Source: Thermoanaerobacter sp. A7A
Lineage (GTDB): Bacteria; Bacillota; Thermoanaerobacteria; Thermoanaerobacterales; Thermoanaerobacteraceae
NCBI RefSeq assembly: GCF_000445185.1
Contig: NZ_AVAF01000114.1
Location: 1-64,000 of the forward strand
Direction: 5' to 3'
Length of the DNA stretch: 64,000 nucleotides
A program made the position numbers and the translations under genes. The notes beneath the pieces are model-generated. The model worked only from the letters and a program-made list of their open reading frames with translations, ran no database searches and was not told where the DNA came from. Of the stretch, positions 51,147-63,255 are shown piece by piece (the first letter of the stretch is position 1; every line of letters begins with the position of its first letter).

Positions 51147-51587
51147 ATGAAACTAGGGTATATAGACAATTTAGAAATGTTTTTACGAGAGATAAACCAC
51201 ATATTAAATTTATATACTCGAAGCTATCTCAACGAAAAAAATATAACGATGGCGAGGTTTTGGGTTATGAATAAGTTGTCGGCTGACAACCCAATAACCA
51301 TGAAAGAATTGCAAAGAAGGTTGCTGCTAGCTCCCGCTACTCTGACAGGACTTGTTGACAATCTTGTAAGTGATGGGCTCGTTGAAAGATGGCGAGACGA
51401 AACTGACAGGAGGCTTGTTTATCTGAAATTAACCCAAGAAGGTGATAAACTATTAAAAGAGATTTTACAATATCGCACATCAATACTCGCAAATATTTTG
51501 AAAAAAATTGAGGGACTTGACGTAGAACGGCTAAACAGGGATTTGAGGTTAATTTGGAATCATTTGAAAGAATGTGAGACTTGCTAA
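51147..51587 (+). CDS. MarR-family transcriptional regulator
   Basis: A 146-residue winged-helix protein with the MarR recognition region TMKELQRRLLLAPATLTGLV and the wing DGLVERWRDETDRRLVYLKLT. It probably represses the ABC/MFS efflux genes behind it, since it starts the transcription unit and overlaps the next gene by a few bases. ATG 51147 is seven bases after GGGAGG. Confidence 0.9.
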   Translation: MKLGYIDNLEMFLREINHILNLYTRSYLNEKNITMARFWVMNKLSADNPITMKELQRRLLLAPATLTGLVDNLVSDGLVERWRDETDRRLVYLKLTQEGDKLLKEILQYRTSILANILKKIEGLDVERLNRDLRLIWNHLKECETC

Positions 51588-51613
51588 ATTTTAATTTGGA
51601 AGGAGGTGTTTGT

Positions 51614-52120
51614 ATGCCTTTTTCTGTTGAAGTTAAAAATCTAAGGAAGTTTTTTGGAAAGTATGAGGCAGTTGCAGGTATAAGTTTTAACATAAACAAA
51701 GGAGAGGTTTTTGGCTTATTGGGACCTAATGGAGCAGGAAAAACAACTACAATTCGTATGATAACTACGCTTTTGTCTCCGACATCAGGCGAAATCAAAA
51801 TAGAGGGAATAAATGTTATAAAAAATGGAGGTTATATTCGAAATTTAATAGGATATGTACCGCAAGCCTTATCAGCCGATTCAACTTTAACAGGGTATGA
51901 AAATCTTCTAATTGTTGCAAAATTATTGCGCTTACCTAAAAAAGAGAGAGAAGAAAGGATTAATCATATTCTTGACATATTAAATTTAAGTGAAGCAGCA
52001 AACAGGATTGTCAAAGAGTACTCTGGTGGTATGGTTAGAAAACTGGAAATCGGCCAGGCATTAATACATAAATCCTCTGAGTTATATTGTAGAACTTTTA
52101 AGAGGATATTTATTAAATAG
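51614..52120 (+). pseudogene. Truncated drug-type ABC transporter ATPase
   Basis: Starts at ATG 51614 after GGAAGGAGG. It is a normal DrrA-type ATPase up to about residue 155: Walker A GPNGAGKTTT, Q loop GYVPQ, and the signature region EYSGGMVRKLEIGQALIH. Where Walker B (LDEPT) should follow, the frame changes into unrelated residues and stops at 52120. The D loop and H loop are also missing, so it cannot hydrolyse ATP. The break is at about 52072, where sequence from the end of a permease gene begins. Confidence 0.88.
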
Positions 52121-53883: not shown

Positions 53884-55095
53884 CTATAATTGCAATGAAC
53901 TTGACTCTTTTAGACCCACTTTTAAGATTGTATGATTAAAAGTTAAATAACGAATAGGAGTTTCTTGATAAAAAACTACAGGCTTTTCCAGAAAATTATG
54001 CTTTTTATTAATAAGGTGTAAATTTTTTAATAAATTTTTTTTGTTTTCATATAGTTCTTCTTGTTTGCAGATGGTAAGAGATGTTAAAACCGCTGGAGCT
54101 GTAAGAAAACCGATATAACGGAGTAATTTTGAAAAAGCAAGCTGATAAAATCGGTATGGATAAGAATCAGAAAAATAGTAACTGGAAAAATTAAAAATAG
54201 GAATTATGCCCTGCACATTTTCAGGAAGGCGGTATTTAAGGCTGGCAAGTAAAGGTTGCACTGACGAGGCGCTAATGAAACTAAAAGGTGGAGATAATTC
54301 GCTGACTTCTAAAGAATTCTGCACTTGAAAAAGTTTAAATGTAGAACCGACTTTAAAAAGAGCTAAAGAATAACGGTAACCAAATAAAACGGCAGCACCT
54401 CGGGCTATTTGTAACAAAGGAGCAAATTCGTAAATTTTACCGCAAGTTTGTGGTAAAAAATCTTCGGTTAAGCAGACTGCTTCGTTTTCAACCCAATATA
54501 TTCCTGGGGGGTAAGGAGCAAAAAAATCTCTAAGTTGCTTAAGATAAGGATATACTGTAACCATAAAATTATCAGCTATTAGCAAAGCTTTTTCTCGTTC
54601 ATAAAAGCCAAGCTGGGGATAATCCTGAGATTTTAAGATTGTTGCCGAAGCGAGTTTTTTAAGTATACGAATAGCTTTGTCTTCTTTTTCAGGGTAGACT
54701 AGACCAAAAGGCGCAATGATGGAGATTACATTGGCTTTTTTAATCTGCTCTTTATTTTCTTCTAATTTTTGTAAAAGTTTTTCTGGGGTTACTTGAAAGA
54801 TTGTTACTAGTTTTTGTAAATTTTGGGATTGGGTAAAAAAAGCACTAAATTGCTCTGGTACTAGGCGAAGATGAAAGATTGGCTTAATATCACTTTTTGC
54901 TGAAGAAGAAAGAGGTGGAGTAAAATAGACTTTAATTACATCTTTTCTAGATAAGCCTAGTATGGAAAGGCAGTGCTCTAATTCATCTAAAAAAGTCTGC
55001 CAAGAAAATTTTCCTTCATAAAGAAGGTACTTACCTGAGCCAGCGATAAGAGTTCCAGATTGACCATTCAAAAAAATTCCAAGTGTAAGTTTCAA
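53884..55095 (-). CDS. Degenerate hydantoinase/oxoprolinase-like pseudoenzyme
   Basis: The 403-residue protein looks unrelated at first but aligns along its length with the intact hydantoinase at 60756-62306. GIFLNGQSGT occupies exactly residues 6-15, where the enzyme has GIDVGGTNTD. LGFYEREKALLIADNF matches LGLLERENATVLNAAL. RGAAVLFGYRYSLALFKVG matches the enzyme's RGAAF...ALVLDVGG. The key acidic and glycine residues of both phosphate loops are lost (D8 to F, G10 to N, T12 to Q, D15 to T; DVGGTTSD to FKVGSTFK). It is also about 110 residues shorter. The reading frame is intact, so the protein is probably made but catalytically dead. It overlaps the DUF917 gene upstream by four bases and is last in the regulator operon. 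Confidence 0.75.
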   Translation of the reverse strand: MKLTLGIFLNGQSGTLIAGSGKYLLYEGKFSWQTFLDELEHCLSILGLSRKDVIKVYFTPPLSSSAKSDIKPIFHLRLVPEQFSAFFTQSQNLQKLVTIFQVTPEKLLQKLEENKEQIKKANVISIIAPFGLVYPEKEDKAIRILKKLASATILKSQDYPQLGFYEREKALLIADNFMVTVYPYLKQLRDFFAPYPPGIYWVENEAVCLTEDFLPQTCGKIYEFAPLLQIARGAAVLFGYRYSLALFKVGSTFKLFQVQNSLEVSELSPPFSFISASSVQPLLASLKYRLPENVQGIIPIFNFSSYYFSDSYPYRFYQLAFSKLLRYIGFLTAPAVLTSLTICKQEELYENKKNLLKNLHLINKKHNFLEKPVVFYQETPIRYLTFNHTILKVGLKESSSLQL

Positions 55096-56201
55096 GAAAA
55101 TACCTCCTTTTTATGGTAGTAGTCCCAATATAGCTTTTCCAGCGGTACATAAATAGTTCGATAGCCAAAACATTGAGGGCCAACGACATCTAGAGCTTTG
55201 CTGATTCTGAGTCGAAGCGGTGCTGGAAGGCCCAGAAGTGCCAGCTGTTGTCCTTCATAAATTTCGTTGTTGTTTACTGGTTTAAGTTTATTTAAATCAA
55301 TTGCAGAAATTAAATCAGGCACACTAGCAACCATATTACCGTTTTTAAAAGCGAGCAGATTTTCATATTGAAAAAGAAGTTGTAATTTTTCACCTTTTGG
55401 CGAAATTAATGTTGCAGCTTTCCATTTAGTAATTTCATATGTGGAGATGTTTGTTACGGTACCTTGGAAAATTTCCACTACTGGCCCGTAGAAAGAGTTA
55501 GAAGTTACTTCTAAAAGCAAGCTAAACAGTTCACGATAATTATCAGCTTGTAGAAAGCATTCACCTATTTCTCGAGCAAAAGTTAACGTGCCTGGAAGAA
55601 GGACTCTTTTTAGCACAGAACCAGGATAAGGAAAACCAGCAAAATAACCTACTCCTCCCTGCTGGGAAATAATCTGGCGAGTATTCAATTCTAAAAGGAA
55701 GGTATCTTGCTTATCAAGAAACAAATGCAAATTATAATTGCTGTCAATTAACACTAAAGGAGTAACAGTTAAATTTTCAAGATGATAGGTGGTCATTTGC
55801 AATTCGGGAAAAGCTCGCCCCATAGCATCACCATCAGTAACTGGTAAGCCTGTTTGAAGCGCAGTTAAGAGTGGGTAAAAAATATTAACCCCTGCTCCTT
55901 CAACGATTGAGATCCCCTTAAACTTAGCACCAGTATGTTTTTCTAACTCCTCAATAATAATACGTGCTTCCATTCCCGAAGGTAGGCTTTCTTCACTTAA
56001 TTCCGGTGAGCCTAGAAGACCTACGCCGCAAAAAAAATTGTTTTCTGGCAATTCATCAAGGGTTAGTAATGGAATAGAACGGTTTTGTAAAGCTTTATAC
56101 AGTACAGATGCCAAAAGTTCACTTTTCCCGCCACCACCCGAACCGAGGAAGATACTGCCATACCAAAGTGGTTCAATCCAATCAATGGTAATTTCTTGCA
56201 T
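55092..56201 (-). CDS. DUF917 protein, regulator-linked copy
   Basis: A 369-residue paralogue of the DUF917 protein at 59636. It keeps LGSGGGG (residues 19-25) and the block DAMGRAFPELQMTTYHL, and ends with VGPQCFGYRTIYVPLEKLYW. Between these it differs strongly: the enzyme copy's GAPTV becomes a longer GSPELSEESLPSG segment, and the middle third has few matches. DUF917 has been renamed for S-methyl thiohydantoin desulfurase activity in one characterised member. It lies eight bases after the sigma-54 activator gene and overlaps the pseudoenzyme gene, so the three form one operon. Confidence 0.85.
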   Translation of the reverse strand: MQEITIDWIEPLWYGSIFLGSGGGGKSELLASVLYKALQNRSIPLLTLDELPENNFFCGVGLLGSPELSEESLPSGMEARIIIEELEKHTGAKFKGISIVEGAGVNIFYPLLTALQTGLPVTDGDAMGRAFPELQMTTYHLENLTVTPLVLIDSNYNLHLFLDKQDTFLLELNTRQIISQQGGVGYFAGFPYPGSVLKRVLLPGTLTFAREIGECFLQADNYRELFSLLLEVTSNSFYGPVVEIFQGTVTNISTYEITKWKAATLISPKGEKLQLLFQYENLLAFKNGNMVASVPDLISAIDLNKLKPVNNNEIYEGQQLALLGLPAPLRLRISKALDVVGPQCFGYRTIYVPLEKLYWDYYHKKEVFS

Positions 56202-56209
56202 AGTTACAC

Positions 56210-57790
56210 CTACCTTAGATGGTATTTTCTAAGCCAACGATAGAGAGTTGCCAGACTAATACCTAACTCTTGGGCAATTAACTTTTTGGACTGGGTAGAA
56301 TTACCGTATTTAGCTAATAGAATTTCTAACTGATCTTTTAATTGATCGACCTGGATAATTGGATGGGTGGTTTTAACTTCACCAAACTGGGATTTACTAG
56401 AGGAAAAACCGTTTTGTAAGTACTTTGGTAGATAATGCAGAATAATTTTATCACCTTTACAAATAGAGACGGCGTAAGTAACTACGTTTTTTAATTCTCG
56501 TATATTTCCTGGCCAATTATAATTCTGAAGTATTTGAATAGCTTCGGGGCTAAAGACTTTAAATGGCTTATCTTGTTCAAGACAAACATTTTTTAAATAA
56601 AAATCCAAAAGCAGAGGTATATCATCTCGACGCTCACGTAGTGGTGGTATGAAAACTGGAAAAACATTTAAGCGGAAGAATAGGTCTTCTCTGAACAGTT
56701 TAGCATCAATTAATTCTTTTAAATCTTTATTAGTTGCCGCAATAATTCTTACATCAATTGGACGGGAAACAGTAGCTCCAATTCTTTCTACTTGTCGGTT
56801 CTCCAAAACCCGTAAAAGTTTTGCTTGTAATTGTAGAGGCATGTCACCAATTTCATCAAGAAAAATTGTTCCACCATTAGCAAGTTCAAATTTACCAGGC
56901 TTGCCGCCACGACGAGCACCTGTAAATGAGCCGTCTTCGTAGCCGAAAAGTTCGCTTTCAAGAAGGTTATCGGGAATTGCAGCACAGTTTATTGCAATAA
57001 AAGGATGGTTTTTCCGAGGACTTAAGTAGTGAATATAGCGGGCAAAGAGTTCTTTACCAGTGCCACTTTCACCTTGAAGTAGTACTGTGCTGTCGGTTAC
57101 TGCGATTTGTCGTACAAGGTCTTTTATTTCTAAAAAACGAGGGTTTTTACCTGGAATAGTAAAAAAAGAATCGTCGTGAAAAAGGAATTTGTTTTCTTCC
57201 TGCTTGGTTGGTTCTGTTTTCCAGACTATCGAACCCGTTGTTATTCCATCTTTTGTAAAAATACGATAATAAAAGTTTCCCCATCTGGTTTTTATAAAAC
57301 CTTCTGGCTCACCTGTCTGACTTACCTTTTCCCAAAGGGTAAAGGTAGAAAGTTGGATAGGCGAATGAGTTTGACTTAAAATTAGTTGTCCTTTATTGTC
57401 AAAAAGGAAAAACTCTATATTAAATTGATTTGCCAAAAATTGCAATGCTTCCGCGATTAACAAATTATCGGATTTTTGTTCAGGAATATATAACATTTCC
57501 AATACAGTCAAAAGAAATTTAACAAGGAATGCGGGTGTTAGCTTTAAATCTCTATCAATGTTTTTAGGCAATGCAACCACAAAAATATCTTCTTCTAGTT
57601 TAAAGGAAAGTATTAGCTCATAAGGGCAAGCAGTGCCTTCCGGGCAAGTGGGCGTACAGGGTGGTGCCCAAACACGATAGCCTGTTTTCGGAAGTGAAAT
57701 AAATGAGAAACATTTTTCCGGAAGATTGGTCACAACGCCAAAAGTTTCTTTAAGAGAATCAATAAAAGAATCAATAAAAGCTTTTCTCAT
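56210..57790 (-). CDS. Sigma-54-dependent transcriptional activator
   Basis: A 526-residue enhancer-binding protein. The N-terminal sensor region (about 1-210) holds a cysteine cluster C45-x3-C49-x5-C55 (CTPTCPEGTAC) and a PAS- or GAF-like part. The AAA+ domain has Walker A GESGTGKE (about 241-248), the sigma-54 loop GSFTGA (about 285, a variant of GAFTGA) and Walker B GGTIFLDEIGDM. A Fis-type helix-turn-helix ends the protein (AQELGISLATLYRWL). ATG 57790 is chosen; an in-frame GTG at 57805 lies in the likely ribosome binding site GTGGTGA. It should activate the -24/-12 promoter at 58147. Confidence 0.93.
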   Translation of the reverse strand: MRKAFIDSFIDSLKETFGVVTNLPEKCFSFISLPKTGYRVWAPPCTPTCPEGTACPYELILSFKLEEDIFVVALPKNIDRDLKLTPAFLVKFLLTVLEMLYIPEQKSDNLLIAEALQFLANQFNIEFFLFDNKGQLILSQTHSPIQLSTFTLWEKVSQTGEPEGFIKTRWGNFYYRIFTKDGITTGSIVWKTEPTKQEENKFLFHDDSFFTIPGKNPRFLEIKDLVRQIAVTDSTVLLQGESGTGKELFARYIHYLSPRKNHPFIAINCAAIPDNLLESELFGYEDGSFTGARRGGKPGKFELANGGTIFLDEIGDMPLQLQAKLLRVLENRQVERIGATVSRPIDVRIIAATNKDLKELIDAKLFREDLFFRLNVFPVFIPPLRERRDDIPLLLDFYLKNVCLEQDKPFKVFSPEAIQILQNYNWPGNIRELKNVVTYAVSICKGDKIILHYLPKYLQNGFSSSKSQFGEVKTTHPIIQVDQLKDQLEILLAKYGNSTQSKKLIAQELGISLATLYRWLRKYHLR

Positions 57791-57830
57791 AAATTTTATC
57801 ACCACTTAAAATGAAAAATTTTAATAGCCA

Positions 57831-57880
57831 TGAGAAAACATGATAAAAAATGAGAAATTTTGAGAATAAATGAGAAAATA
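57831..57880 (+). repeat. Five 10-bp-phased TGAGAAA repeats (candidate activator sites or bent DNA)
   Basis: TGAGAAAACA, TGATAAAAAA, TGAGAAATTT, TGAGAATAAA and TGAGAAAATA begin at 57831, 57841, 57851, 57861 and 57871, exactly one helical turn apart. They lie between the divergent activator gene and the sigma-54 promoter. An inverted copy (TTTTCTCAT) covers the activator start codon at 57782-57790. They may bind the activator side by side on one DNA face, or bend the DNA through phased A-tracts. Confidence 0.7.
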
Positions 57881-58146
57881 AAATAAAATATAAAAAATAT
57901 AAGTTAATTTTTATTATATTTTAATTCAAAAGAAATTCTGCGTCAATAATTTTTTCTTAGCTATAAAATTTTTAAACGTTTTAATTTTGCTTACAATTGG
58001 CATTTTAAGATTAAGAAAATTTTTTTAACACATCTCACTTTTTGTTTTTTTACCTTTCAAAATGGAATTCTACTTATTATCAAGAACTTTCCCATCGTAT
58101 AACTTTACACATCCTTAGTTAAAATCATAAAAGTTTGGCGAAGAAA

Positions 58147-58163
58147 TTGGCATGATTTTTGCT
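58147..58163 (+). promoter_or_regulatory. Sigma-54 (-24/-12) promoter of the permease operon
   Basis: TTGGCATG, four bases, TTGCT: GG at 58149-58150 and GC at 58161-58162 stand 12 bp apart, as sigma-54 requires. It fits YTGGCACG-N4-TTGCW with one mismatch. Transcription would start near 58174, about 60 bp before the permease ATG. Confidence 0.9.
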
Positions 58164-58232
58164 AAACTATTGCTTCACAGAATTAACTTTTTAAACTTTA
58201 AAAAATTAACTTTTTAAAGAGGAGGAGTCAAA

Positions 58233-59552
58233 ATGGCTTTTAAGACTGCTGATGACTATTCTTTAAGTCGTGTTCCATTAGATGCACGACGTCCTATGTG
58301 GGAGGTTTTCATGATTCGTTTTGGCAGTGTGGTTTGTTTGCCTTTACTTATGACTGGTGCCACTATAGGCTATGGCATGACAATGAAAGATGTAATTATT
58401 GCTACTTTATTGGGTGTTACAATTATGGAAATTGTCAGTTTTTTAACTGGGGTAGCTGGAGCTTTAGAAGGAATGTCTACTAGTTTTCTTTCTCGCTGGG
58501 CAGGCTTTGGTCAACTAGGTTCGAGTCTTATTGGACTTGTAATTTCAATTACGGCTACGGGTTGGTTTGGTATTCAAAATTCTGTTTTTGCTGAGGGACT
58601 TTATAGTGCTTTTAGGGGTAAGGTTAATATTCAGTTATTAATGCTTATAAGTGGTATTGCAATTACATTAATTGTAGTTTATGGTTATAAAATGCTTAGC
58701 TATACAGCAAATATTGCTGTTCCTGCTTTTATAGCCGGAGTATTGTGGGCTACATTTAAAATGTTAGGTAACTACAATATGAGCGAAATTCTTTCATCTC
58801 TCCCTCCGGGTCCGCATCTTACTATTGGTGTTGCTGCAACTATGATAGCGGGTGGCTTTATGGTAGGTTCGGTTATAACGCCTGATCTGAGTAGGTTTAA
58901 CAGAAATGCCAAAGATGTTTTTTGGATGACTTTACTAAGTCTACTTTTAGGAGAAATATTACTAAACTTTATAGGAGCCACGATGGCACATGCAGCAAGT
59001 ACAAGCGATGTTGTTAAGATAATGTATAATCTAGGTGGTTGGTTTGCTGCATTGTTGGTTATTTTTTCAACTATAAAAATTAATGATTTAAATCTTTATG
59101 CTGCTTCATTGGGTGTTACTAATTTTTTAGATGCTGCCTTTAATGTAAAAGTTAACCGAGGAATAGTTACATTGATTATTGGAATAATAGGAACAGCACT
59201 TTCTATGATGGGAATATTAGAGAAATTTACAAGTTTTTTGATGATATTAGGAATTGCAATACCACCTATTGCAGGAATCATGGTTGTTGATTATTTTATC
59301 TTAAGGCGTTTCAAAAAAGAACTTGAGGAAAGTCGTGCAGAGGGCAAATTACCGGAGATTGTGGAGCATATCAATCCTATTGCATTATTAGCTTGGTTAA
59401 TTGGAGCTTTAATAGGTTATTATGTTCAGTGGGGTATTCCAGCATTAAATTCTTTAGTGGCTGCTGGTTTAGCACACTGGTTAATATCGAAAATGTGGGC
59501 TATAACCACAGGCCGTAAAATGATTCGTTTTGTAAAAGGTGAGAATGCATGA
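58233..59552 (+). CDS. NCS1-family permease (cytosine/hydantoin permease-like)
   Basis: A 439-residue protein with about 12 membrane helices of the NCS1/CodB family (VPLDARRPMWEVFMIRFG, TGWFGIQNSVFAEGL, GSVITPDLSRFNRNAKD). NCS1 members import nucleobases, hydantoins and related rings with a cation. First gene after the sigma-54 promoter; together with the following hydantoinase and racemase it suggests uptake of a hydantoin-like compound. AGAGGAGGAG precedes ATG 58233. Confidence 0.9.
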   Translation: MAFKTADDYSLSRVPLDARRPMWEVFMIRFGSVVCLPLLMTGATIGYGMTMKDVIIATLLGVTIMEIVSFLTGVAGALEGMSTSFLSRWAGFGQLGSSLIGLVISITATGWFGIQNSVFAEGLYSAFRGKVNIQLLMLISGIAITLIVVYGYKMLSYTANIAVPAFIAGVLWATFKMLGNYNMSEILSSLPPGPHLTIGVAATMIAGGFMVGSVITPDLSRFNRNAKDVFWMTLLSLLLGEILLNFIGATMAHAASTSDVVKIMYNLGGWFAALLVIFSTIKINDLNLYAASLGVTNFLDAAFNVKVNRGIVTLIIGIIGTALSMMGILEKFTSFLMILGIAIPPIAGIMVVDYFILRRFKKELEESRAEGKLPEIVEHINPIALLAWLIGALIGYYVQWGIPALNSLVAAGLAHWLISKMWAITTGRKMIRFVKGENA

Positions 59553-59635: not shown

Positions 59636-60739
59636 ATGAAAAAGGATATAGAAAAAATTAAGAAAATCGATGTGCAAGTAGTCGAAGACATTGCGGTTGG
59701 AGCTGCTCTTCTCGGAACTGGGGGAGGAGGAGACCCTTATGTAGGCAAACTCATGGCTATTCAAGCTCTACAAAAAAATGGTCCAGTAGAACTTATTGAT
59801 GTGGAGAATATACCCGATGATGCATTAGTTGTTCCTGTAGCAATGATGGGAGCGCCGACAGTATTAGTAGAAAAAGTACCATCAGGAAAAGAGATTTTCA
59901 AGGCTTTCGATAATCTTCAAAGTTTTCTTGGGAAGGAAGTATATGCGGTTCTTCCCATTGAAGCCGGAGGAGTTAATTCAATGATACCTATTATGGTTGC
60001 AGCTGAGAAGAAACTACCACTGGTAGACGTAGATGGCATGGGAAGGGCTTTCCCGGAGCTGCAAATGGTGACATATCACCTTTATGGAGTTTCTGCAACA
60101 CCTATGGTTTTAGCAGATGAAAAAGGTAATTCTATACTTTTACACACAATCAGTAATTTCTGGACGGAAAGTCTTGCTAGAAATGCTACGGTAGTTATGG
60201 GTGGATCAGTTATGATAGCAATTTATCCGATGACTGGAAAAGATTTAAAACGAGCAGGAATAAGAAATGTTATTTCTTATTCGGTTCAAATTGGAAGAGT
60301 GATACGCGAAGCCCGCAAGAAAGGTGAAGATCCTATAGAGGCACTTTTAGAAGTGACAGGTGGATACATGCTTTTCAAAGGCAAAATTTCTGATGTGCAA
60401 AGGCGTACTACTGGTGGATTTGTCCGCGGGGAAGCTCATATTGATGGAATTGACCAATATAAAGGGGAAGCCATGACTATTAATTTCCAAAATGAAAATT
60501 TAATAGCTCGCCGCAATGGAAAAGTTGTAGCTACCGTACCTGACTTGATTTGTACCGTTGACGCCCATACAGCTTTACCTATAACCACCGAAGGATTACG
60601 TTATGGACAGAGAGTATTTATTATAGGAATTCCGTGTGATAAGAAGTGGAGAACTGAAAAAGGCATTGAAACTGTTGGTCCGCGTTACTTTGGATATGAT
60701 GTTGATTATATACCTTTAGAAGAACTCAATAGAGGTTAA
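59636..60739 (+). CDS. DUF917 protein (S-methyl thiohydantoin desulfurase family), catabolic copy
   Basis: A 367-residue member with the family text LGTGGGGDPYVGK (from about residue 26), EAGGVNSMIPI, DVDGMGRAFPELQMVTYHL and RYFGYDVDYIPLEEL. DUF917 genes normally stand next to HyuA-type hydantoinases, as here (16 bases). One characterised member removes sulfur from S-methyl thiohydantoin, so a thiohydantoin-like substrate is possible, but the substrate is not shown by the sequence. AGGAGGT precedes ATG 59636. Confidence 0.9.
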   Translation: MKKDIEKIKKIDVQVVEDIAVGAALLGTGGGGDPYVGKLMAIQALQKNGPVELIDVENIPDDALVVPVAMMGAPTVLVEKVPSGKEIFKAFDNLQSFLGKEVYAVLPIEAGGVNSMIPIMVAAEKKLPLVDVDGMGRAFPELQMVTYHLYGVSATPMVLADEKGNSILLHTISNFWTESLARNATVVMGGSVMIAIYPMTGKDLKRAGIRNVISYSVQIGRVIREARKKGEDPIEALLEVTGGYMLFKGKISDVQRRTTGGFVRGEAHIDGIDQYKGEAMTINFQNENLIARRNGKVVATVPDLICTVDAHTALPITTEGLRYGQRVFIIGIPCDKKWRTEKGIETVGPRYFGYDVDYIPLEELNRG

Positions 60740-60755: not shown

Positions 60756-62306
60756 ATGGAATATCGTATTGGAATTGATGTTGGTGGGACCAATACTGAC
60801 GCAGTCTTAGTAAATGAAAATATGGAACTAATAGAGAGTGTTAAAGTACCGACTACTAAAGATGTTTCAAGCGGTATATTTGAAGCATTGAATAAGGTAT
60901 TAGATAAAAGTAACATAGATCGCAAAAAGATAAAATATGCAATGTTAGGAACAACCCATGCTACAAATGCCATTGCTGAGCGCAAAAGGCTTTGTAAGAC
61001 TGCAATTATTCGAATTGGTAAACCCGCAACCGAAGCAATTGCTCCGCTAGTTGGTTGGCCTAAGGATTTGGTTGAGGCGGTAGGGAATCATTATTACCTA
61101 ATTGCCGGTGGAAATGAATTTGATGGCAGAGAAATAAGTCCACTAGATGAAGATGAGCTTGGTAAAATCGCCAAGGAAATTAAAGGCAAAGTAGAAAGTG
61201 TTGCGGTAATATCTGTATTTTCTCCGGTTAGCAATAAACATGAATTAAGAGCAAAAGAAATATTGCAAGAAGTTCTTGGGGAAATACCAATATCTCTATC
61301 TCATGAAATTGGTTCCCTTGGCCTACTTGAGAGGGAAAATGCTACTGTTTTAAACGCCGCTTTAGTTGAAGTTGCTCGGACAACTGCTAATAGTTTTAAA
61401 GATGCTTTGAAACGAGAAGGTCTTACAGAGGCTACCGTATATCTTTGTCAAAACGATGGAACTTTAATGTCGATTGATTATGCGATGCGTTATCCTATCT
61501 TAACAATTGCTTGTGGTCCTACAAACAGTATTCGTGGAGCAGCTTTTCTTAGTAAGCTAGAAAATGCATTAGTGCTTGACGTTGGTGGAACTACAAGTGA
61601 CATTGGAGTTATTTCTCAGGGATTTCCTAGAGAATCTTCCATTGCAGTAGAAATTGGCGGGGTGCGGACAAACTTTAGAATGCCTGACTTAATTTCACTC
61701 GCACTTGGCGGTGGTACAATTATTCGTGAAGAGAACGGCGAAATTAAAGTAGGTCCTGAAAGTGTAGGGTATAGAATTACCGAAGAGGCTTTGGTATTTG
61801 GAGGGAAAACCATAACTGCTACTGACATTGCAGTTCGTTTAGGATTGGCAGAAGTAGGTTCTAAGGAAAAAGTAAAAGATATACCTTTAGAATTTGCTAA
61901 GCGAGCACATGCCAAAATGCAAGAAATGATTAATGAAGCCATTGACAAAATGAAAACCAGTAAAGAACCACAACCTCTTGTATTGGTTGGCGGAGGAAGT
62001 ATTATTGTTGCCGATGAAGTACACGGTGTAAATGAAATAGTAAGGCCGAAAAATTTTGGAGTAGCCAATGCTTTAGGTGCTGCTATAGCTCAGGTTAGTG
62101 GTGAAATAGATCGCATTTATTCTTTGAGTGATATGAGCAGAGAGGCAGCATTAAACGATGCAAAGCAACGGGCAATAAATGAAGCAATAAAAGCAGGGGC
62201 TAATCCTGAATCAGTGGATGTTGTTTATGTTGAAGATATACCTTTAGCTTATCTTCCCGGAAATGCAGTTAGAATTAGAGTTAAAGCAGCAGGAAATTTA
62301 ATTTAA
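60756..62306 (+). CDS. Hydantoinase/oxoprolinase (HyuA N-terminal type)
   Basis: A 516-residue ASKHA-fold enzyme. Phosphate loops GIDVGGTNTDAV (residues 6-17) and LDVGGTTSDIGV (274-285) and the adenosine motif VLVGGGSIIVADE are intact. GTTHATNAI (65-73) is the family substrate segment. It is the single-domain form (no HyuB fusion) that usually pairs with DUF917. It would open a hydantoin- or oxoproline-like ring with ATP. It is 16 bases behind the DUF917 gene with AGGAGG as ribosome binding site. Confidence 0.93.
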   Translation: MEYRIGIDVGGTNTDAVLVNENMELIESVKVPTTKDVSSGIFEALNKVLDKSNIDRKKIKYAMLGTTHATNAIAERKRLCKTAIIRIGKPATEAIAPLVGWPKDLVEAVGNHYYLIAGGNEFDGREISPLDEDELGKIAKEIKGKVESVAVISVFSPVSNKHELRAKEILQEVLGEIPISLSHEIGSLGLLERENATVLNAALVEVARTTANSFKDALKREGLTEATVYLCQNDGTLMSIDYAMRYPILTIACGPTNSIRGAAFLSKLENALVLDVGGTTSDIGVISQGFPRESSIAVEIGGVRTNFRMPDLISLALGGGTIIREENGEIKVGPESVGYRITEEALVFGGKTITATDIAVRLGLAEVGSKEKVKDIPLEFAKRAHAKMQEMINEAIDKMKTSKEPQPLVLVGGGSIIVADEVHGVNEIVRPKNFGVANALGAAIAQVSGEIDRIYSLSDMSREAALNDAKQRAINEAIKAGANPESVDVVYVEDIPLAYLPGNAVRIRVKAAGNLI

Positions 62307-62500
62307 CAGACTTTAGTAATTTACTTCCATCTTCTATAAAATGGAGATGAATTAGAGTATAAATGGAAACCAAATCTGGGGAGGCATTTACCTTACGAGT
62401 AGTAGGCGAGCACGACATGAACTAGTGTCTGTGGAGGATGCGATAGCATTCTATGAAGCAGGGAGCCACTGCCTAATATAGATGGAAGGCAATTCATTTA
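62307..62500 (+). mobile_element. Candidate IS200/IS605 (TnpB) right-end / omega-RNA-like scar
   Basis: The gap between the hydantoinase and racemase genes holds no gene. From about 62395 it reads like the 3' tail of TnpB genes and their overlapping omega-RNA: GGCGAGCACGACATGA, CTGTGGAGGATGCGATAGC, TATGAAGCAGGGAGCCACTG, then CTAATATAGATGG and AAGGCAATTCAT. Stems are formed by GAATGC-type arms (GATGCGATAGCATTC) and by AGCCACTGCC with GATGGAAGGCAATT. I recognise the pattern GAAGCAGGAAGCCACTxCC...TAGTTCA from such elements, from memory. No transposase frame remains. Confidence 0.5.
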
Positions 62501-62526
62501 ATTTTAAAAAACAAGGAGGGTTACTT

Positions 62527-63255
62527 ATGAAACTAAAAATTATTGTGCCAATTACTTCAGAGGTATTTAATGAGGAAGTTAAAAAGGAAATCAAACACTA
62601 TGTAGATCCTGATGATTATGTTGATGTTGAAAATTTGAATTATGGTCCGGCGTCCATCGAGTGTGAATATGATGAAGCTATGGCTGTACCAGATATCTTA
62701 AATAAGGTAAAGAAAGCTCAAGAAGAAGGATTTGAGGGTATAGTTATTGATTGTTTTGGGGATCCGGGGGTACATGCTGCACGGGAACTTGTTGATATAC
62801 CCGTTTGCGGTGGTTTTGAACCTTCTATGCAAATTGCTTTAGGACTTGGTCAAAACATTGGTGCTGTTACAGTTTTGCCCAATGTTATTCCAATGCTACA
62901 CGATTTAGTTGCCAAGATGGGAATAGAAAAGCGAATAAAAGCACTACGATATGTTAACATTCCAGTATTAGATTTGGGCGATAAGAAAAAATTAGAAGAT
63001 GCCTTATTCAAGGAAAGCTTAGATGCAATTCAAAAAGAAAATGTTCATGTTATTGTATTAGGTTGTACTGGCATGATGGGAGTGGCTAATAATCTAATGA
63101 ACAGGTTAAAAGAAGCTGGTTATGATGTTCCAGTAATAGACCCGGCCTTTGCTGCGGTAAGAATGGTTAAAACTTATATACGCATGGGATTGAAGCATAG
63201 CCGGTTGACTTACATGACTCCTCCTGCAAAACCATATACTTGGTGGGGAAAATAG
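62527..63255 (+). CDS. Asp/Glu/hydantoin racemase-family protein
   Basis: A 242-residue protein of the aspartate/glutamate racemase fold with the paired catalytic cysteines in VIDCFGDPGV (near residue 76) and VLGCTGMMG (near residue 182), as in hydantoin racemases. The pair suggests cofactor-independent two-base racemisation. It lies in the same direction as the hydantoinase operon but is separated by 220 bp containing a mobile-element scar. ATG 62527 follows AAGGAGG; longer readings include non-conserved residues. Confidence 0.88.
   Translation: MKLKIIVPITSEVFNEEVKKEIKHYVDPDDYVDVENLNYGPASIECEYDEAMAVPDILNKVKKAQEEGFEGIVIDCFGDPGVHAARELVDIPVCGGFEPSMQIALGLGQNIGAVTVLPNVIPMLHDLVAKMGIEKRIKALRYVNIPVLDLGDKKKLEDALFKESLDAIQKENVHVIVLGCTGMMGVANNLMNRLKEAGYDVPVIDPAFAAVRMVKTYIRMGLKHSRLTYMTPPAKPYTWWGK

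Follow-up and report, generated by a model that had tools for sequence, protein, structure and literature searches.

Comparison with related genomes indicates that a row of five short head-to-tail DNA units in a divergent intergenic region of Thermoanaerobacter sp. A7A is probably the upstream activator sequence (UAS, or enhancer) of the σ54-dependent activator encoded beside it; we infer that this activator binds the row. In the window (the whole stretch of DNA analyzed, 64,000 nucleotides), the intergenic region spans 57791–58232, with the activator gene on the minus strand to one side and an operon on the plus strand to the other. The features of the locus, in coordinates of the window, are as follows.

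57831–57880, plus strand: proposed activator-binding array or UAS, five head-to-tail units (from sequence; kept in nine other genomes)
57812–57818, plus strand: lone flanking copy, TGAAAAA (TGAGAAA in the 99%-identical G008 locus)
57783–57790, minus strand: inverted copy TTTCTCAT / ATGAGAAA made by the activator start codon (ATG, 57790–57788; from sequence)
57918–57946, minus strand: predicted σ70 promoter of the activator, TTGACG-N17-TAAAAT (same form in G001, G211, G121, G083 and G156)
58147–58163, plus strand: σ54 (−24/−12) promoter TTGGCATGATTTTTGCT of the divergent operon (from sequence)
56210–57790, minus strand: σ54-dependent activator, AAA+ (Sigma54_activat), with C-terminal helix-turn-helix GISLATLYRWLRKY (Pfam, sequence)
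55092–56201, minus strand: second S-Me-THD-like paralogue, downstream of the activator (domain match, conserved synteny)
53884–55095, minus strand: 403-residue protein, downstream of the activator and the second S-Me-THD paralogue (synteny conserved in all orthologous loci examined)
58233–59552, plus strand: NCS1-type permease (Transp_cyt_pur), first gene of the presumed target operon (domain match)
59636–60739, plus strand: S-Me-THD-like protein, presumed target operon (domain match, synteny)
60756–62306, plus strand: hydantoinase/oxoprolinase-like protein, presumed target operon (domain match, synteny)
62482–63255, plus strand: Asp/Glu/hydantoin racemase-like protein, presumed target operon (domain match, synteny)

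The units start at 57831, 57841, 57851, 57861 and 57871, exactly 10 bp from start to start, and read, in order, TGAGAAA, TGATAAA, TGAGAAA, TGAGAAT and TGAGAAA. The sequence-only reading of this DNA had described five TGAGAAA repeats at 10-bp intervals; the position, the period and the count of five stand, and the identity of the repeats does not, three of the five being exact and units 2 and 4 carrying one change each. The next frame, AAATAAA at 57881, could count as a sixth unit only in degenerate form, and the lone copy at 57812, 19 bp from unit 1, is out of the 10-bp register. When chains of any 7-mer at any spacing of 8–40 bp were scored over the 442-bp intergenic region, the top chain (score 33, five units) was the array itself. 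The maximum over 200 dinucleotide shuffles of the region was 20, in agreement with the earlier judgment that a chance origin is unlikely.

The array lies 40 bp from the activator start codon, and the start codon contains an inverted copy, both as previously described. We considered this inverted copy as one half of a phased operator and rejected it: the distance from the start codon to the array ranges from 10 to 40 bp among the loci without a constant helical phase, and the spacing between the TGATAAA of the ribosome-binding site and the inverted copy varies from 8 to 13 bp. A coincidence with the ATG-AGA-AAA codons is more likely. The predicted σ70 promoter (57946–57918) places the array within the predicted 5′ leader of the activator.

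Several other features of the neighborhood were recorded. The sequence TTAAACGTTTTA (57972–57983) is common to the window and G001 amid poorly conserved sequence and resembles a weak catabolite-response (cre) palindrome. A 23-bp tandem duplication (58173–58218, CTTCACAGAATTAACTTTTTAAA / CTTTAAAAAATTAACTTTTTAAA) lies between the σ54 promoter and the ribosome-binding site of the permease. The 403-residue protein has no Pfam or NCBIfam match. Further out, an apparently shortened ABC-type ATPase reading frame (51581–52120, plus strand, 179 residues) is followed by an MFS transporter. Comparison with phage records gave no match.

Within the genus, a three-unit pattern allowing at most one mismatch was found at this locus only, in 4 of 10 genomes; precisely these four genomes encode the N-terminal domain of the activator and carry the operon's first S-Me-THD-like gene. 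In the same genus-wide scan, the reversed-pattern control gave zero matches in whole genomes. The looser pattern TRAKAAW finds the locus in six of eight genomes, missing G211 and G280 (degenerate units); its sole other match is a TAATAAAGCC tandem in G001. The G008 locus is 99% identical to the window, and the G001 activator is 72% identical to the window activator. Both G001 and G007 carry four TGAGAAW units at 10 bp in the corresponding place, next to a different permease (~30–31% identical), and their promoter region aligns poorly past the array. Since the permease and the σ54 promoter region differ within the genus while the array is kept, the array has stayed with the activator.

The window-type permease resembles those of the G083 and G211 loci (60%), and the other type those of the G280 and G183 loci (77–78%). 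Two NCS1 permeases in the same place of otherwise syntenic operons within one genus likely reflect replacement by recombination. Stops or frameshifts break three genes of G007, those for the activator, for the second S-Me-THD paralogue and for the operon's first S-Me-THD protein; the array and the promoter are intact.

A profile of the activator N-terminal domain, searched against 399 genomes of the phylum, identified six further loci in three other families (G211, G121, G083, G156, G280 and G183). A scan with the whole activator returned general activator relatives only, through the AAA+ domain, and no orthologous locus. The activators of the six loci are 59–78% identical, and gene order is shared across the operon, the activator and the two genes that follow the activator, except that no racemase gene was found in the stretches covered for G280 and G183. 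A −24/−12 promoter equivalent to TTGGCATGATTTTTGCT is present in the divergent region of every orthologous locus, and all six distant loci combine it with three to five head-to-tail TRAKAAA-like units at 10 bp. G211 has TAAGAAA TAAGAAC TAAGAAA AAAGAAA, one 10-bp unit different from G121, which like G083 and G156 has five units. Only three in-register units are found in G183 (TGATAAA TGAGAAA TGATAAA) and in G280 (CAAGAAA TGAGAAA TGATAAA, one of the three degenerate). These counts describe a pattern-selected set whose invariant columns are partly so by construction, and a held-out matrix test is fairer.

For the held-out test, a matrix was trained on the units of the window and G001 only, and spacings of 8–20 were compared. 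Spacing 10 was best in 6 of 6 distant loci, and 0 of 300 shuffles per locus, maximized over spacing, matched the observed score. The narrowest margin was that of G211 (15.9 versus a shuffle maximum of 15.5). Within two close pairs of loci, the core positions T1, A3, K4, A5 and A6 were changed in 2 of 45 cases versus 11 of 45 at the other positions (p = 0.007). None of 80 upstream regions of other activators exceeded three phased copies. At the level of sequence, then, the row and its spacing are kept in relatives of at least five genera. The comparison with relatives proposed in the sequence-only reading thus found the phased array in every orthologous locus identified, and no relative that keeps the operon without it.

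The distance from the end of the array to the −24 TGG is 270 bp in the window (where the array, its center ~320 bp away from the predicted start of transcription, lies far from the promoter, a point against the enhancer reading), 144 bp in G001, 142 bp in G280, 123 bp in G183, and 100–102 bp in G211, G121, G083 and G156. With the last four taken as one value, the five distances cluster in helical phase for a chosen repeat of 10.5 bp per turn (R = 0.89, p ~0.01); the clustering is significant at 10.4–10.6 bp per turn and not at 10.0, 10.2, 10.8 or 11. A shared phase is as expected of an enhancer that needs to face its promoter, and these five, partly related values are at most suggestive of one.

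The activator contains a σ54 interaction domain (PF00158, E = 4.5e-70) with GSFTGA in place of GAFTGA, invariant in eight orthologues; PMC6615313 counts GSFTGA among the working variants of GAFTGA. As expected if the proteins read a conserved DNA word, eight of eight proteins that are 59–100% identical share the recognition helix SLATLYRWL without change. The C-terminal domain misses the cut-off of the Fis-type Pfam family HTH_8 in the window protein (20.0 versus 22 bits) and in two others (15.6 and 13.8 bits). It fits HTH_23 or HTH_28 somewhat better than HTH_8, and passes HTH_23 in G083 (28.3 versus 24.6). The predicted structure has a mean pLDDT of 49 overall and of ~80 over three C-terminal helices, so that a helix-turn-helix of a type related to Fis is likely there. 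As modeled, these helices are compatible with single domains bound one after another along the DNA. Four cysteines of the N-terminal sensory part, C27, C45, C49 and C55 (PPCTPTCP...CPY), are invariant in eight of eight orthologous activators. This region, which matches no Pfam family, might serve to sense a metal or an Fe-S cluster.

The arrangement suggests the following model. The C-terminal helix-turn-helix of the activator would read one unit per helical turn, aligning three to five activator subunits on one face of the DNA. The aligned subunits would seed the AAA+ oligomer, which would loop to the σ54 holoenzyme at 58147 and, on ATP hydrolysis, open the promoter of the permease and thiohydantoin/hydantoin-type operon. 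With the array placed between the predicted σ70 promoter and the start codon of the activator, autoregulation is compatible with this model and plausible, and the occupied array would probably also repress the activator as a road-block. Most known sites of σ54 activators are inverted repeats, and the usual view of assembly is that dimers on such repeats seed it and that the hexamer is then built. We raise as a more tentative possibility, and one we doubt, that single DNA-binding domains sit head to tail with one helical turn per subunit, in which case the DNA would template a one-sided AAA+ oligomer instead of dimers on dyads.

Conservation by itself does not identify the binding protein, since the array and the locus as a whole go together. 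The array might be the operator of another DNA-binding protein, or serve chiefly in autoregulation of the activator, with the true enhancer at another place between the two divergent genes. One-turn direct repeats are more typical of other classes of regulator, and the position of the array in the predicted 5′ leader, 16–43 bp downstream of the −10 element in the loci where this σ70 promoter was found, would make a good repression site. However, the helical phase of the array is kept relative to the σ54 promoter and not to the σ70 promoter (the distances to the predicted −10 element, 40, 43 and 16 bp, have no common phase), the conserved genes of the locus include no further regulator, and the intergenic regions of the window, G008 and G001 contain no TGT-N10-12-ACA site. 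The uniqueness of the array in each genome argues against a global regulator in particular. We regard either alternative as unlikely.

Action at the RNA level appears less likely still. The leader carries several copies of UUUCUCAU with complementarity to the AUGAGAAA start region, so RNA pairing that hides the activator start codon could be an additional layer of control. The start codon region reads ATGAGAA in all loci, and for most loci the predicted pairing of this region at 65 °C is stronger than in shuffled leaders (0.007–0.2 of the shuffles reach the same level). An antisense repeat would, however, need no 10-bp period, and the distance from start codon to array is variable. The change of G to T at position 4 is tolerated although it breaks the pairing, and compensatory changes were not seen. 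Stem energies at 65 °C are just 0 to −4 kcal/mol. The z-scores for folding differ by locus, with strong values at 65 °C for the window, G008 and G001 and unremarkable ones for G211, G156 and G280. Positions 57700–58300 gave no Rfam match at E values up to 1.

The sequence-only reading had also offered a static bend from phased A-tracts that aids DNA looping, and had called for a curvature prediction. The prediction, computed from wedge values, gave the window and G001 a curvature above at least 99% of shuffles, but G211, G121, G083 and G280, all with the array, were unremarkable, and the T at position 1 and the K at position 4 are kept although neither is part of an A-tract. A bend as the conserved function is accordingly very improbable. 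Least credible of all is a neutral minisatellite produced by replication slippage in AT-rich DNA: relatives do differ by one 10-bp unit, but word, orientation, spacing and place are the same across distant genera, and the spacers have changed while the core is kept.

Of the upstream activator site, the autoregulatory site and the bend that had been offered for this array, the comparison thus favors the UAS, presumably bound by the activator: the array tracks the activator, is unique to the locus, and keeps its 10-bp spacing in distant relatives. The role proposed for it, that of an enhancer for an AAA+ σ54 activator, is the role of the AnfA, NifA and NtrC sites, which often occur in two or more copies. 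AnfA sites are TAC-N6-GTA dyads, thought to be bound by dimers (PMC7294313), whereas all units of the present array have the same orientation. In PMC6615313 and PMC4641369, on Clostridiales and Desulfovibrio, UASs are placed between a −24/−12 promoter and an activator gene that is divergent or adjacent, an arrangement that the present array shares, and the regulons of the σ54 activators are mostly small. The commonest shared motif there is an inverted repeat, TGT and ACA 9–12 bp apart; the present array differs in its single orientation and in the absence of that motif from the three intergenic regions named above. TRAKAAA is not named in the available text of these two papers.

The nearest direct-repeat precedent that we found in the open-access literature is Nla28 of Myxococcus xanthus. 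Its likely site is a series of imperfect 8-bp half-sites in tandem, with a minimum of two and frequently three to five per promoter, upstream of σ54 promoters that include that of its own gene (PMC9765219). The proposed UAS resembles it as a direct repeat with at least two half-sites in the same orientation upstream of a σ54 promoter, here three to five in register. The Nla28 half-sites, in contrast, are GC-rich (CT(C/G)CG(C/G)AG), irregularly spaced (mean ~25 bp) and present at many promoters (PMC9765219), and the present array is found at one locus. Relative to the systems described in the open-access literature, and allowing for a possible prior description, what is new is a probable direct-repeat enhancer with strict one-turn spacing.

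A conserved head-to-tail array with one-turn spacing and a variable number of units would be a natural system for studying how enhancer geometry sets the oligomer, and would also suit asking whether the number of DNA-bound subunits limits activation. The analysis supplies a proposed binding motif for an uncharacterized activator and suggests that it has a single-target regulon in several Firmicutes.
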